Shown one piece after another: positions 3,742 through 54,128 of a stretch of DNA of 64,000 nt. How positions within the stretch are numbered: the first letter of the stretch is position 1; each line of letters opens with the position of its first letter. The notes beneath the pieces were generated by a model that had not been told where the DNA came from, searched no databases, and saw only the letters and a list, made by a program, of their open reading frames with translations. A program made the translations under genes and the position numbers. The DNA comes from Bacteroidetes bacterium HGW-Bacteroidetes-8 (lineage in GTDB: Bacteria; Bacteroidota; Bacteroidia; Bacteroidales; UBA932), in assembly GCA_002840895.1 (NCBI GenBank), contig PHCZ01000016.1:1-64000 (forward strand), in the 5' to 3' direction.

Positions 3742-4704
3742 CTAATAATTGGGAATGACCTTCTTAAAAGAGTTGTGAACTCTGTTGTGAATCTTCTCCA
3801 CCTCTGTTGCAACTCCTGTTCCAGCAACAAATCCAACGAGATAGAATGTAACCGGTCCATCAACTGCTGTATAGCTGAACATAGAGCCGTTATATTCGTA
3901 AGAGTATCTGCAGGTATAAATATCACCGACCTTTTCAAAGCTTTGTCCAAGAAGGGTTGCCCCGTTTCCTCTTATTGAGGCAACCTGTTCATTCATAAAT
4001 GAATTAAGGTTTTTCCCATCTTTAATAACATTCTGAACCACCATTGTGATTGATTTACCCGCAGAGAAGCCGGGAATATCCCAGATAGTTTGCCCTGGTT
4101 CTGTTTTGCGCACTGTAGATCCTTTTGGGATGAGGTGTTCCAGCTTTGCGTCATCTGAGACCAAGAGCTGGAAGGCGTCATCTGGTTTCTCTAACCCTGC
4201 AGCACTTAAACCTAGAATAGTAAATGAGTTTGTAATTGCGTCCGACTCTGCAGACCTGCTAGCAAAAAGGTTCTCAGGTATCATAGACCAGACAATGTAT
4301 CCAATGTTGTTTTGAATAGTATAAAAGGCACCAACCACAACAGTGATATTGTTGTAACGCCAACGATAACCAGCCATCTTCCCGGTTGCTCCGTTAAGAT
4401 TGTGTGGTTGAATAACCAATTGATTTGCACCTTTTAGAACATTTTGCCTAAATGCTGTTACTACCTGATCTACCGATACGTTTGCAGGAAGTTCAAACGA
4501 ACGGATACTTACAGCAACGTTATTGTCCCTGCTGACAAAAGCGTGAATCTTATCCGAACCATCCCAATACTGGTTGGTTTGATAATTTAAAGGAACAGAG
4601 ATCTTGAATTTCATCTGAGAATCTTCTACCATTCGGTTCTGGGCAGTTGCATTGAGACAAATGGTAAAAGTAGCGATAAGAAGAATTTTTGAGATTTTTT
4701 TCAT
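3742..4704 (-). CDS. Hypothetical secreted protein
   Basis: 320 aa with a Sec signal peptide (the first 21 residues, cleavage probably after NATA). The mature part has no transmembrane segment and alternates short beta-type stretches (VSIRSFELP, TVVVGAFYTIQNNIGYIVW, YTCRYSYEYNGSMFSYTAVDG), suggesting a periplasmic or surface beta-rich fold. I recognise no catalytic motif and no named family. It lies on the minus strand between a small lipoprotein and the adenine deaminase gene with gaps over 80 nt, so it is probably its own unit. Confidence 0.6.
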   Translation of the reverse strand: MKKISKILLIATFTICLNATAQNRMVEDSQMKFKISVPLNYQTNQYWDGSDKIHAFVSRDNNVAVSIRSFELPANVSVDQVVTAFRQNVLKGANQLVIQPHNLNGATGKMAGYRWRYNNITVVVGAFYTIQNNIGYIVWSMIPENLFASRSAESDAITNSFTILGLSAAGLEKPDDAFQLLVSDDAKLEHLIPKGSTVRKTEPGQTIWDIPGFSAGKSITMVVQNVIKDGKNLNSFMNEQVASIRGNGATLLGQSFEKVGDIYTCRYSYEYNGSMFSYTAVDGPVTFYLVGFVAGTGVATEVEKIHNRVHNSFKKVIPNY

Positions 4705-50466: not shown

Positions 50467-50586
50467 CTGACAGTATTTTGCGTAAACACCTGTTTATCTG
50501 CAGAATAGTATTCTCAGTTTGGTAGAATCAACAAAATAAGATTATTAAATATCTCATAATTAGATTGTTTCACAAAATACTGTCAG
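50467..50586. repeat. 14-bp inverted repeat spanning the thrC 3' end
   Basis: CTGACAGTATTTTG at 50467-50480 and its exact complement at 50573-50586, 92 bp apart. The right arm is the last coding bases of thrC. The intergenic part between 50404 and 50559 holds no other recognisable element apart from the short palindrome AGAATAGTATTCT near 50502. Confidence 0.6.
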
Positions 50587-52011
50587 TTCATTGGCTTCAA
50601 TTTTTATGCTTCTCTTCTTAAGAGTGAGGCATTTTGCAAGAGAGTCGGGAATTTTAACTTCGACTCCGGTTGCGCGCTTGACAGTTTCGGCAAATTTGGC
50701 CGGGTGGGCTGTTTCTAATATAATGGAATTGAAGCCCTTCGGCTGGTATGATTCGTTTGTTAGGGTTGATTCGCTTGTTTGATGTGAGCTACCTTGTTGG
50801 TGCAGATATTCCTGGAGGGCGAGGTAGCCGACGGCGCCGTGGGGGTCCATCAGATAGCTGTGTTGGGTGTATATCTCACGGATAGCTTCCAGGGTTTGGG
50901 GGTCGGAGTAGGATTGGCTAAAGATCACTTTACCGGCGGCTGCTGCATTGCCGAACAAGGACTGAATGCGGGCGAAGTTGCTTGGGTTACCTACATCCAT
51001 TGCGTTTGAGAGGGTGGGGATAGATGGTTTTGGCTCGAACTTGCCATTTTGCAGATAGTTGGGAAAGATGTCGTTGGAGTTTACTGCGGCAATAAAGCGG
51101 TGGACCGGGAGTCCCATCTGCATTGCGAAGAGTCCGGCGGTGAGGTTCCCGAAGTTGCCGCTTGGCACCGAAAATAGAAGTCGCTGTTCGTCCGCCCGGT
51201 TAGATGGCCCTCCGGACAGATGAGATGTACTGCCGGACAGATGAGATGTACTGCCGGAGAAATGAGATGTCCCGCCGGACAATTGGGAATCACGGGTTGC
51301 GAGTTGGGCGGCTGCGTAGAAGTAGTAGAATGATTGGGGTAGAAGGCGGGCGATGTTGATTGAGTTGGCAGATGAGAGGTTGAGCCGTTTACGGAGGGAG
51401 GTATCTGCAAATGCCTCTTTCACCATCCGTTGGCAGTCGTCAAAGGTTCCGTTGACCTCAAGAGCGGTGACGTTGCCGCCCAGGGTTGTGAGTTGTTGTT
51501 CCTGAATTTTGCTCACTTTTCCTGATGGGTAGAGAATAACGACATCTACGCCCGGAACATTATGGAAGCCGTTTGCCACAGCGCTGCCGGTATCTCCGGA
51601 GGTGGCTACAAGCACAACTGTTCTCTCCAACCCAAAGTGGGATATGATTCCGGCCAGAAATCGAGCCCCAAAATCTTTAAAGGCAAGGGTGGGGCCGTGG
51701 AATAGCTCAAGGACATAAGTGTTGTTGCCAAGATCTTTGAGCGGAGCATCAAAATTGAGTGCATTGTAGACAATTCTCTCAAGATCCCTCTCCGGAATCT
51801 CTCCGGAGCTAATCTCATCTGCAAGAATCTCTCTTGCCAAACGGAAAGAGAGCTCACTGAAACTTAATCCTCTCAGGTTTTTGATGAATTCTGGAGTGAA
51901 GTGGGGCAGCGACTGCGGCATAAAGAGACCGCCATCACTTGCAAGACCCTGCAGGACAGCCTCCCGAAAGCTCACTTTGTTGTTTATATTGTTTGTACTA
52001 TATAGTATCAT
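50560..52011 (-). CDS. thrC: Threonine synthase ThrC
   Basis: 483 aa from the ATG at 52011. It converts O-phosphohomoserine to threonine with PLP. Blocks: MILYSTNNINNKVSFREAVL, LELFHGPTLAFKDFGARFLA with PLP lysine Lys112, ATSGDTGSAVANGF, SSANSINIARLLPQSFYYF, VPSGNFGNLTAGL. Residues 241-273 are an insertion of SGSTSHL-type repeats between the conserved QLAT and LLFSVPSGNFGN blocks, where relatives have only a few residues. It is third in the thr operon, 63 nt after thrB. Confidence 0.95.
   Translation of the reverse strand: MILYSTNNINNKVSFREAVLQGLASDGGLFMPQSLPHFTPEFIKNLRGLSFSELSFRLAREILADEISSGEIPERDLERIVYNALNFDAPLKDLGNNTYVLELFHGPTLAFKDFGARFLAGIISHFGLERTVVLVATSGDTGSAVANGFHNVPGVDVVILYPSGKVSKIQEQQLTTLGGNVTALEVNGTFDDCQRMVKEAFADTSLRKRLNLSSANSINIARLLPQSFYYFYAAAQLATRDSQLSGGTSHFSGSTSHLSGSTSHLSGGPSNRADEQRLLFSVPSGNFGNLTAGLFAMQMGLPVHRFIAAVNSNDIFPNYLQNGKFEPKPSIPTLSNAMDVGNPSNFARIQSLFGNAAAAGKVIFSQSYSDPQTLEAIREIYTQHSYLMDPHGAVGYLALQEYLHQQGSSHQTSESTLTNESYQPKGFNSIILETAHPAKFAETVKRATGVEVKIPDSLAKCLTLKKRSIKIEANELTVFCETI
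51212..51282 (-). repeat. 21-nt tandem repeat inside thrC
   Basis: Three full units of 21 nt start at 51212, 51233 and 51254, the first two identical, with a partial fourth. On the coding strand they encode the seven-residue unit SGSTSHL. The frame is preserved. Confidence 0.85.
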
Positions 52012-52074: not shown

Positions 52075-53022
52075 CTATTTTAAGTAGATAACTTTTGGAC
52101 CTTGGTTGTTGATTTTCGAGATGTAGAGGTCGGACCCAAGATTGAACTCATTCAAAGCAATCTGCATAGATTGGCCGATAGCATCTGCTTTAGCCTGCGA
52201 ATCTGACAGAGCGAATAGGGAGGGTCCAGATCCACTGATGCTGCAACCCAAAGCTCCGGCATCCAGTGCAGCACACTTCATCCGGTCAAAACCCGGAATC
52301 AAACGGGAGCGAACAGGCTCTGCAACAAAATCCTCCAGCGAGCGCCCAATGAGAGCAAAGTCACTCTTGAAAAACCCGGCCACAAGCGTCGCGGTATTAC
52401 CCCACTGTCGAATAGCATCTGAGAGCGGAATCTGATCGGGCAGCAACCGCCTGGACTCTTTGGTAGATATCTCAATATGAGGATGTATTACAGTGCAGTG
52501 CAGATTCTCCGGAACATCAAGTTTGATGATATCTATCGGGTGGTAACTGCGGATAAGCACAAAACCACCATAAAGGGCCGGAGCAACATTATCTGCGTGG
52601 AGTGATCCACTGGCAATCATCTCACCCTCAATTGCAAAAGGCAATAACTCTCTCGGGGAGAGCCTTAGGTCAAAGAGCATATTCATTGCAAAAGCTGCAG
52701 CCACAGCACTCGCGGCGCTGGAACCCAACCCGCTGCCAAGAGGCATCTTTTTGTGAATCTCAATCTCCACACCACACTCAATCCTGTGAGCCTTCACTAT
52801 GGACAATATCGGTTTCCCGGCAGTATTCAATGCAGGATCTTTGGTAAGCTTACCATTATCTCCGGTAATCTCCACAATCCTAACACCGGGCCTCTCGCTC
52901 ACCCTCAGTACCAGCTCATCCCCCGGCATATCAATAGCAAACCCCATAACGTCAAATCCACAAGCAATATTGGAGACGGTGGCCGGGGCAAAAACTCTTA
53001 TCTCATTTATTTTTAATCTCAT
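52075..53022 (-). CDS. thrB: Homoserine kinase ThrB (GHMP family)
   Basis: 315 aa, full length. It phosphorylates homoserine. N-terminal VFAPATVSNIACGFDVMGFA, the GHMP ATP loop PLGSGLGSSAAS at 94-105, GSLHADNVAPALYGGFVLI and GCSISGSGPSLFAL are the family marks. It begins 7 nt after the stop of the aspartokinase gene and precedes thrC, the usual thrABC order. Confidence 0.95.
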   Translation of the reverse strand: MRLKINEIRVFAPATVSNIACGFDVMGFAIDMPGDELVLRVSERPGVRIVEITGDNGKLTKDPALNTAGKPILSIVKAHRIECGVEIEIHKKMPLGSGLGSSAASAVAAAFAMNMLFDLRLSPRELLPFAIEGEMIASGSLHADNVAPALYGGFVLIRSYHPIDIIKLDVPENLHCTVIHPHIEISTKESRRLLPDQIPLSDAIRQWGNTATLVAGFFKSDFALIGRSLEDFVAEPVRSRLIPGFDRMKCAALDAGALGCSISGSGPSLFALSDSQAKADAIGQSMQIALNEFNLGSDLYISKINNQGPKVIYLK

Positions 53023-53029
53023 TGTAATA

Positions 53030-53896
53030 CTAATTTCTTAAAGATATGATCTCACTCGATTTCAAATTGTAACACGGACTCGAACGGTGATAGTCAACCG
53101 CAATACTCTTCGGTTCAACTCTGTACCCAGCCTTTCTTGCTAAGATAAGCAATTTTTCTGCAACATCCTTACCATTGATCTCATCCCGGATACTGGCACT
53201 CATAACCCCATCTACATCTGTCCAGATCTCAATCTCGGCGACCCCCATAGCAGCTCCAATTATTGAAGCGGTATAATCCGATCCGCCTCTGCCAAGAGTT
53301 ATGGTTTCGCCATTAGCCGTAGAAGCAATAAACCCGGTAATTATATTCACATCGCTGTTTCCCAAAAAGTGTTCACGTATATTCCTGTTTGTAAGTTCAA
53401 AATCTACCCTCTCTGCTCCAAAATCTCCACTGCAGATGATTAGCCAACGGCTGTCGGTAAATCTCGCCTCAACCCCTCTCTCACGAAGAGCCTCACAGAT
53501 GATATATACACTGAGCCTCTCTCCGTAACTCATAATGCTATCCAGGCTTTTTGCGGTGGTCTCGCCTGTGAGAGATACCCCGTGCAGAATATCTGTAAGC
53601 CCCTTAAACTCCATCATAACACGCGCAGTTACTCTGCTCCTGCTCTCTATACCAATAAGTTCGTTTACTGCTTGCAGATGCCTCTCCCTCAACCCCTCCA
53701 AAGTTTTAATATATCCGCTGTTGCCCGTAGATGCAATAGAGCTGATGGTGATAAGCGAATCTGTAACCCCCTGAAAAGCCGAAAACACAACAGCTATTCT
53801 ACCATTTCTCTCTTTTGAGGTGATGATAATATCCATTACATCCTTAATCCTCTTTACATTGCCTACGGACGATCCTCCGAATTTTAAAACTTTCAT
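53030..53896 (-). CDS. thrA: Aspartate kinase, internally deleted ThrA (AK-homoserine dehydrogenase) remnant
   Basis: 288 aa from the ATG at 53896, against about 810 aa for a bifunctional ThrA. Residues 1-234 are the aspartokinase core: KFGGSSVGN at 5-13, MSYGERLSV, FIASTANGETITLGRGGSDYT, EIWTDVDGVMSA. The next residues, SIRDEINGKDVAEKLLILAR, match the late part of homoserine dehydrogenase (in E. coli ThrA around [20 protein letters not shown]). The last 23 residues match nothing I know. So the end of the kinase domain, both ACT domains and most of the dehydrogenase are missing in frame, joint near 53194. Activity is doubtful. It is the first gene after the attenuator and 7 nt before thrB. 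Confidence 0.8.
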   Translation of the reverse strand: MKVLKFGGSSVGNVKRIKDVMDIIITSKERNGRIAVVFSAFQGVTDSLITISSIASTGNSGYIKTLEGLRERHLQAVNELIGIESRSRVTARVMMEFKGLTDILHGVSLTGETTAKSLDSIMSYGERLSVYIICEALRERGVEARFTDSRWLIICSGDFGAERVDFELTNRNIREHFLGNSDVNIITGFIASTANGETITLGRGGSDYTASIIGAAMGVAEIEIWTDVDGVMSASIRDEINGKDVAEKLLILARKAGYRVEPKSIAVDYHRSSPCYNLKSSEIISLRN

Positions 53897-53921: not shown

Positions 53922-53954
53922 AAAAAAAACCGGCCCCATTTAAATGAAGCCGGC
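53922..53954 (-). terminator. Attenuator terminator of the thr operon
   Basis: On the minus strand, CCGGC TTC AT pairs with AT GGG GCCGG (five strong pairs, then two G-T pairs and C-G, A-T) and the stem is followed at once by eight Ts (53922-53929). It lies 25 nt before the aspartokinase ATG. The 5' arm is the strand that the antiterminator would capture. Confidence 0.85.
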
Positions 53955-54057
53955 TCAATATTATTGTTTGATATCAATCAATGCCAACTTCATCCATACA
54001 ACAGTGTTGTTGTGGTTGTAATCGTAATCGTTGTAATAACGATAGCCGATGAAGTTG
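53944..54057 (-). promoter_or_regulatory. Three-state transcription attenuator of the thr operon
   Basis: Segment 1 (54048-54057) pairs over 10 perfect bases with segment 2 (53985-53994). Segment 2 (53983-53993) can instead pair over 11 bases, two of them G-U, with segment 3 (53944-53954), which is the 5' arm of the terminator. Thus 1:2 leaves the terminator free, while 2:3 prevents it. The Thr/Ile codons lie between segments 1 and 2, and the leader stop codon lies inside segment 2, so ribosome position selects the fold. Confidence 0.8.
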
Positions 54058-54073
54058 ATAAATTTAGAATCAT
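53990..54073 (-). CDS. thrL: thr operon leader peptide (ThrL-like)
   Basis: 27 codons from ATG at 54071-54073 to TGA at 53990-53992. The peptide starts MILNLSTSSAIV and continues ITTITITTTTTLLYG. Nine threonine and five isoleucine codons, with the core run at residues 13-23, copy the logic of enterobacterial thrL, where starvation for either amino acid stalls the ribosome. Too short for standard gene callers. The promoter is 26 nt upstream and the terminator 35 nt downstream. Confidence 0.85.
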   Translation of the reverse strand: MILNLSTSSAIVITTITITTTTTLLYG

Positions 54074-54098
54074 AAAAATTTGTACGTTTTTACAATCA

Positions 54099-54128
54099 CA
54101 AATCTATGCTAAATTTTTTAATAACAAA
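54099..54128 (-). promoter_or_regulatory. Promoter of the thr operon
   Basis: Minus strand: TTTG at 54125-54128, 18-nt spacer, TAGATTTG at 54099-54106. The -7 box is exact and the spacer one base short of the usual range. It predicts a start about 18 nt before the leader peptide ATG. Confidence 0.6.

Follow-up and report, generated by a model that had tools for sequence, protein, structure and literature searches.

The window analysed here, by which we mean the whole 64 kb stretch of DNA, carries on its reverse strand a short reading frame rich in threonine and isoleucine codons, followed by an intrinsic terminator, a remnant of thrA, and the thrB and thrC genes. We read this region as a classical ribosome-mediated transcription attenuator of the thrL type that controls thrB-thrC, with the thrA relic lying between, and put the probability of this reading at roughly 0.93. 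The less ordinary part of the arrangement is that the attenuator persists although the first gene that it precedes has decayed, a decay that was overlooked in the first-pass annotation of this DNA.

The leader and its alternative RNA structures

The leader reading frame (Table 1), whose 27 codons with nine for threonine and five for isoleucine were correctly described in the first-pass annotation, ranks first in threonine density among the window's 510 ORFs of 12-60 aa with an ATG start, with eight threonines in 10 codons where the runner-up has six. The promoter box that had been placed just upstream is likewise present; in the six genomes of the genus that have a complete attenuator the start of this TAnnTTTG box lies 12-33 nt before the leader ATG, and TTG or TTTG is found 18-19 nt from the box in all six. 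We take these -7-like and -33-like elements to represent the promoter consensus of the Bacteroidota; TAnnTTTG occurs 93 times on the two strands of the window. In one relative, G017 (locus L009), the box ends only 4 nt from the ATG, so that translation of its leader may start on a leaderless transcript.

The three RNA segments with exclusive pairings, and the terminator with eight Ts formed by the third of them, are located as had been proposed. Segment 2 includes the leader stop codon (TGA, 53992-53990), again in agreement with the earlier description, and can pair either with segment 1 (1:2, -15.3 kcal/mol) or with segment 3 (2:3, -18.6 kcal/mol), and the 2:3 antiterminator pairing is mutually exclusive with both 1:2 and the terminator hairpin (3:4), which sits between the leader ORF and the first gene. 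As a whole, the 170-nt leader region folds better than all 200 of 200 dinucleotide shuffles (z -4.82). The 11-base 2:3 duplex withstood comparison with shuffles of its partner region, none of 2000 being as good. The 10-base 1:2 pairing proposed earlier is present in the window, but is marginal by the same measure, and since 94 of 2000 shuffles equal it the duplex is, taken alone, only suggestive; in G017 it was not detected, and that of G004 is weak.

Masking by the ribosome was computed with footprint dimensions like those of the E. coli ribosome. With this footprint, a ribosome at the leader stop codon would mask 13 of the 13 nt of segment 2 in the window, and the whole of segment 2 in the other five genomes too, while one stalled at any threonine or isoleucine codon of the window's leader would mask 0-2 of the 13; at Thr7, Ile11 or Ile13 a stalled ribosome would also mask 8-10 of the 10 nt of segment 1. 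A ribosome stalled at the last threonine codon would mask 5 of the 13 nt of segment 2 in G006 and 8 of the 13 in G004. We predict that the leader is translated and that ribosomes stall within it, and the response would run as follows. When threonine and isoleucine are plentiful, the ribosome would reach the stop codon and cover segment 2, leaving segment 3 to fold with segment 4 into the terminator and the operon off. When charged threonyl-tRNA (or isoleucyl-tRNA) is short, the ribosome would stall upstream in the threonine/isoleucine stretch, so that segment 2 is free to pair with segment 3 and the polymerase continues into the operon. If the leader were left untranslated, 1:2 would form and the terminator would again win. 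The leader-peptide mechanism and thrL architecture put forward in the first-pass annotation are supported by this geometry and, the 1:2 stem apart, by conservation in six of six genomes.

Table 1. Features of the attenuator and operon in the window, with the leaders of five congeners
Feature	Position	Strand	Remarks
Upstream promoter element (-33-like), TTTG	54125..54128	-	18 nt upstream of the window's TAnnTTTG box
Promoter box (-7-like, TAnnTTTG), TAGATTTG	54099..54106	-	In 6/6 genomes
Leader peptide ORF, MILNLSTSSAIVITTITITTTTTLLYG	53990..54073	-	9 Thr and 5 Ile among 27 codons; five congeners have homologous Thr-rich leaders
Segment 1 (protector 5' arm)	54048..54057	-	Within leader codons 6-9
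Segment 2	53983..53994	-	Holds leader stop codon; partner is segment 1 or 3
Segment 3	53944..53954	-	Serves the antiterminator as 3' arm and the terminator as 5' arm
Intrinsic terminator (3:4) with T8	53922..53955	-	-17.3 kcal/mol; T-run at 53929-53922
thrA relic	53030..53896	-	288 aa; N-terminal aspartokinase part joined to homoserine dehydrogenase piece
thrB, homoserine kinase	52075..53022	-	NCBIfam NF002288, 387.5 bits (cut-off 194)
thrC, threonine synthase	50560..52011	-	TIGR00260, 286.9 bits (cut-off 167.1)
Leader of G016, MILNSSTSSAIVITTITITTTTTLLYG			
Leader of G010, MTIQHTTSIIMGSTSMSTITTTALYD			
Leader of G006, MAIQHTTSIIMGTTSMTTITTTTLYD			
Leader of G017, MTMHTSTIITSTTTALYD			
Leader of G004, MKSSKTIIINKISMSTMTTSTPVRRWW			

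Conservation in the genus and leaders elsewhere

Relatives were sought with two queries. The ThrA relic gave a match of any aspartokinase type in 50 of 60 genomes, its own included, and ThrB, searched in 25 genomes of the genus, gave any match in 23 and a close one (E below 1e-40) in 14. A complete threonine-leader attenuator is present in six of these 14: the window's own genome (G000), G016, G010, G006, G017 and G004. A leader fragment is all that is left in G008, and in G009 the contig ends inside thrA, placing the upstream region beyond the contig. The remaining six (G023, G014, G019, G018, G001 and G002) have no such leader beside thrB, which there lies close behind or overlaps another gene, one that in five of the six begins, by eye, like PurF; the stretches taken from these six showed no ORF with more than four threonines in 10 codons, the stretch of G002 being partly masked. 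A leader, a promoter box, an antiterminator and a terminator thus occur together in six of the six genomes of the genus in which thrA or its relic precedes thrB and the upstream DNA is readable. Conservation of the threonine-rich ORF and of the stems in close relatives was one of the checks that the first-pass annotation had named, and the finding survived it, with a qualification for the 1:2 stem.

A search with the attenuator DNA gave clear matches in G016, G008, G010 and G006, left G017 unmatched and reached G004 at E 0.01 only, so that the attenuators of G017 and G004 rest on position, leader and structure. A T-run terminator stands at the corresponding place in all six genomes. The 2:3 duplex is equalled by few of 2000 shuffles in any of them (0 in G000, G016 and G010, 1 in G006, 2 in G017 and 10 in G004). 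For 1:2 the corresponding numbers are 116 in G016, 62 in G010 and 166 in G006; the protector is weak in G004 (375 of 2000) and was not detected in G017 (1516 of 2000). Pair counts were made on segment registers set by hand around the structure, because MAFFT put segment 1 of the six attenuators out of register between clades. On these registers, 60 of the 66 pair cells of the 2:3 helix stand across the six genomes, and three of its 11 pairs have changed on both sides; the 1:2 helix has 10 pairs in four of the six genomes and all 40 of its cells stand in those four, two of the 10 pairs having changed on both sides; and in the 3:4 helix 67 of 72 cells stand by the script's count, with a both-sided change at one pair and a gap in G017 as one of the five cells that do not stand. 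With six genomes in two or three clades, these both-sided changes represent few evolutionary events or branches. Helices 1:2 and 2:3 of G016 are identical to those of the window. When segments were swapped between species the duplex became weaker for G000 and G004, and segment 2 of G010, G006 and G017 (three of five species) formed a slightly stronger duplex with certain segments 3 of other species than with that of its own genome.

Leaders of this sort are not confined to the genus. In a collection with one genome per species, at least 579 relatives were among the matches listed, of which the best 80, mostly Bacteroidota, were kept; 77 of these loci had at least 250 nt upstream and were searched for an ORF with at least four threonines in 10 codons, matched by no more than two of 200 shuffles. 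A threonine-rich leader precedes thrA at 24 of these 77 loci, mostly in Bacteroidota, and no ORF passed on the reverse strand of the same 77 upstream regions. One or two of the 24 (L073, from the Chlamydiae, and L074) look doubtful, and among the 53 loci that do not pass are isoleucine/threonine-rich leaders that just miss (L044, L048, L080, L100, L115 and L119). The novelty for the phylum suggested by the first-pass annotation is weak on this count, such leaders before thrA being common in Bacteroidota.

A second kind of threonine leader was seen before thrA in other Bacteroidota (L086, L093, L097, L099, L114, L115, L119, L014, L027 and L034). It ends Thr-Pro-(Leu/Trp/Val)-Gly, coded by a small palindrome, ACCCC(N2-4)GGGG, that lies next to the stop codon in most of these leaders; no obvious terminator was found beside it. 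The TP[WL]G code occurs at six of the best 80 loci on the forward strand and at none on the reverse, and the other four leaders were spotted one by one. Reading upstream of other pathway genes also finds leaders, with candidates at both of the further genes looked at. Both lie in the window's own genome, which speaks for the attenuator reading of the threonine leader. About 309-219 nt upstream of the hisG match (L132, C20 of this genome) there is a histidine-rich leader, MNLYSNIHSIHHHHLQLHGRLDRLFVYMR, with HHHH; behind it come a hairpin-like repeat and eight Ts in a row, and the whole is a likely his attenuator. About 385-205 nt upstream of the ilvD match (L131, C11 of this genome) a 59-codon leader rich in leucine, isoleucine and valine ends GLLLLVVSSIIISVIIIRLI; it has no obvious T-run terminator and is a likely branched-chain attenuator.

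The thrB-thrC operon and the remains of thrA

The first-pass annotation spoke of a thr operon, which is right for thrB and thrC and does not hold for the adjoining thrA. Against NF006959, the profile of bifunctional ThrA (about 819 positions), the window's thrA scores 234.2 bits where the cut-off is 726, its best stretch covering profile positions 1-236; the orthologue in G010 scores 1043.6 bits. The window gene is without about residues 235-670 of the G010 protein, continues with a short homoserine dehydrogenase piece, and then has a second gap (where the alignment is weak), a stop and no C-terminal end. To judge from these comparisons it is a truncated relic of a bifunctional ThrA, cut from about 815 residues to 288, and we reject it as a working aspartokinase-homoserine dehydrogenase on account of the profile cut-off and the deletions. 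The start codon of thrC is probably that at 52011. Its gene (50560-52011; 4539-6098 in L123) has a low-complexity insert of TSHLSG repeats between otherwise conserved parts, and a similar insert seems to be present in G016.

Elsewhere in the genus thrA is found in several states. G010, G006, G017 and G004 each have the orthologue as an open reading frame of 816-838 codons with thrB-thrC behind it (domains were checked for G010), and three of these genomes have an asd-like gene in between. Of the thrA of G016 a 13-codon start and a stub remain, some 190 nt together, and despite this near-total loss the attenuator of G016 is 90% identical to that of the window over 225 of 226 query nt. In G008 thrA, leader start and terminator are all gone. 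The piece of threonine leader that was seen there (L130, about 3805-3875, reverse strand), with neither start nor terminator, lies directly before thrB, with the end of an aminotransferase-like gene joined to it. The genus thus appears from its sequences to hold a decay series, in which thrA is intact, a 288-residue relic, about 190 nt, or gone. As these are draft genomes, assembly error was considered as the source of the deletions and was set aside as improbable because of the two gaps, the stop and the missing C-terminus in the window and the different, larger loss in G016.

Rates of change in the relic depend on the part compared. Compared with G009, the relic has 65% identity over the 71 residues common to both, against 82% for ThrB, where G010 gives 77% and 72% respectively; over 237 residues it is 63% identical to G010, and G017 is 65% identical to G010; and its 31-residue homoserine dehydrogenase piece is 71% identical to that of G009, the same as for G010. 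The relic therefore looks relaxed in the 71-residue stretch and not over the 237 or the 31 residues.

A second, complete bifunctional ThrA (895 bits) is encoded in the same genome, away from the attenuator, where it adjoins asd, an enzyme of Cys/Met metabolism and an alpha/beta hydrolase that is, by context, likely to be metX; no threonine leader was found at this locus. A third amino-acid-kinase frame, of 453 aa, is taken for a putative monofunctional aspartokinase.

The erosion of thrA bears on how the attenuator itself is to be regarded, since the switch could be a relic of a decaying operon that no longer works. The multiple deletions in the gene behind it would fit such a history, as would G008, which lost the leader start and terminator along with thrA. 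We consider it very improbable, given that the helices, promoter box and threonine codons are intact in both the window and G016, in the latter behind a thrA more eroded than the window's, and that thrB and thrC score above curated enzyme cut-offs. Just as improbable is a leader acting mainly at translation, opening or re-initiating on the next gene with the terminator incidental. PMC4833913 does propose that leader ORFs have a role in re-initiation, the distances from leader to gene peaking at 11-14 bp in Bacteroidetes, but in the window 93 nt separate the leader stop from the thrA start downstream (83-93 nt across the six genomes), and a strong terminator with its T-run stands between the two.

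That an ordinary terminator merely lies beside a chance threonine-rich ORF would draw on nothing beyond the general frequency of terminators, and is almost negligible in view of the conservation in five congeners, the exclusive 2:3 pairing, the match to the pathway and the 24 forward and no reverse significant ORFs in the 77 thrA upstream regions (from the best of at least 579). A functional attenuator remains our reading; on balance we also favour, with much less assurance, the view that selection has kept it while the first gene of the operon was deleted piecemeal, so that what is preserved would be the control that threonine supply exerts on the last two steps of threonine synthesis, aspartokinase supply having passed to the second ThrA beside asd and the likely metX.

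Known attenuators and the retention of the proposed switch

In E. coli the thr operon is preceded by thrL, a threonine/isoleucine-coded leader with its stop codon in segment 2, a terminator before the operon and an alternative antiterminator, and the window's element is like thrL/thrABC in each of these respects; it differs in its Bacteroidota-type promoter box, and in that the thrA of its operon is a relic. Threonine attenuators are also said to have been predicted by comparative genomics by Vitreschak et al. in 2004 (FEMS Microbiol Lett 234:357), the abstract reportedly extending attenuators to some Bacteroidetes/Chlorobi, and the window's element is of the same kind. Membership of the Rfam family Thr_leader (RF00506) was rejected, the leader region scoring 21.3 bits (E 0.22), below the gathering cut-off of 55, and in this, too, it differs from the E. 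coli element. The Bacteroid-trp motif (RF01692), which from its name presumably belongs to trp operons, is absent from the eight Rfam matches in the leader region. That motif, as entered in Table 1 of PMC2864571, is likewise a cis-regulatory RNA of Bacteroidetes, at a different operon.

Attenuation by leader peptides is already in the literature for the phylum. For Flavobacterium psychrophilum, strong clues for it are reported before amino-acid operons (PMC9723704), a case of the same mechanism class in the same phylum that was inferred from transcript maps and structures, the threonine operon not being named in that passage; sORFs reminiscent of attenuation leaders are reported for Bacteroides thetaiotaomicron in a passage of PMC7366714; and attenuators for histidine, threonine and phenylalanine are credited in PMC1262725 to Vitreschak et al. 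(2004) together with a second paper. Our literature search, with subscription papers mostly outside its reach, found no threonine attenuator of Bacteroidota. Given that threonine leaders before thrA are common in Bacteroidota and that leader attenuation in the phylum is published, the window's attenuator is of a known type and comes as little surprise.

The region nevertheless provides a well-supported example of thr attenuation in Bacteroidota, in an element that the Rfam model misses and whose leader is probably missed by gene callers too, as the first-pass annotation held. The staged loss of thrA with retention of the attenuator amounts to a small natural experiment on the purpose of the switch and, if the proposed history is true, the genus would offer a natural series in which to study at what point an attenuator disappears.
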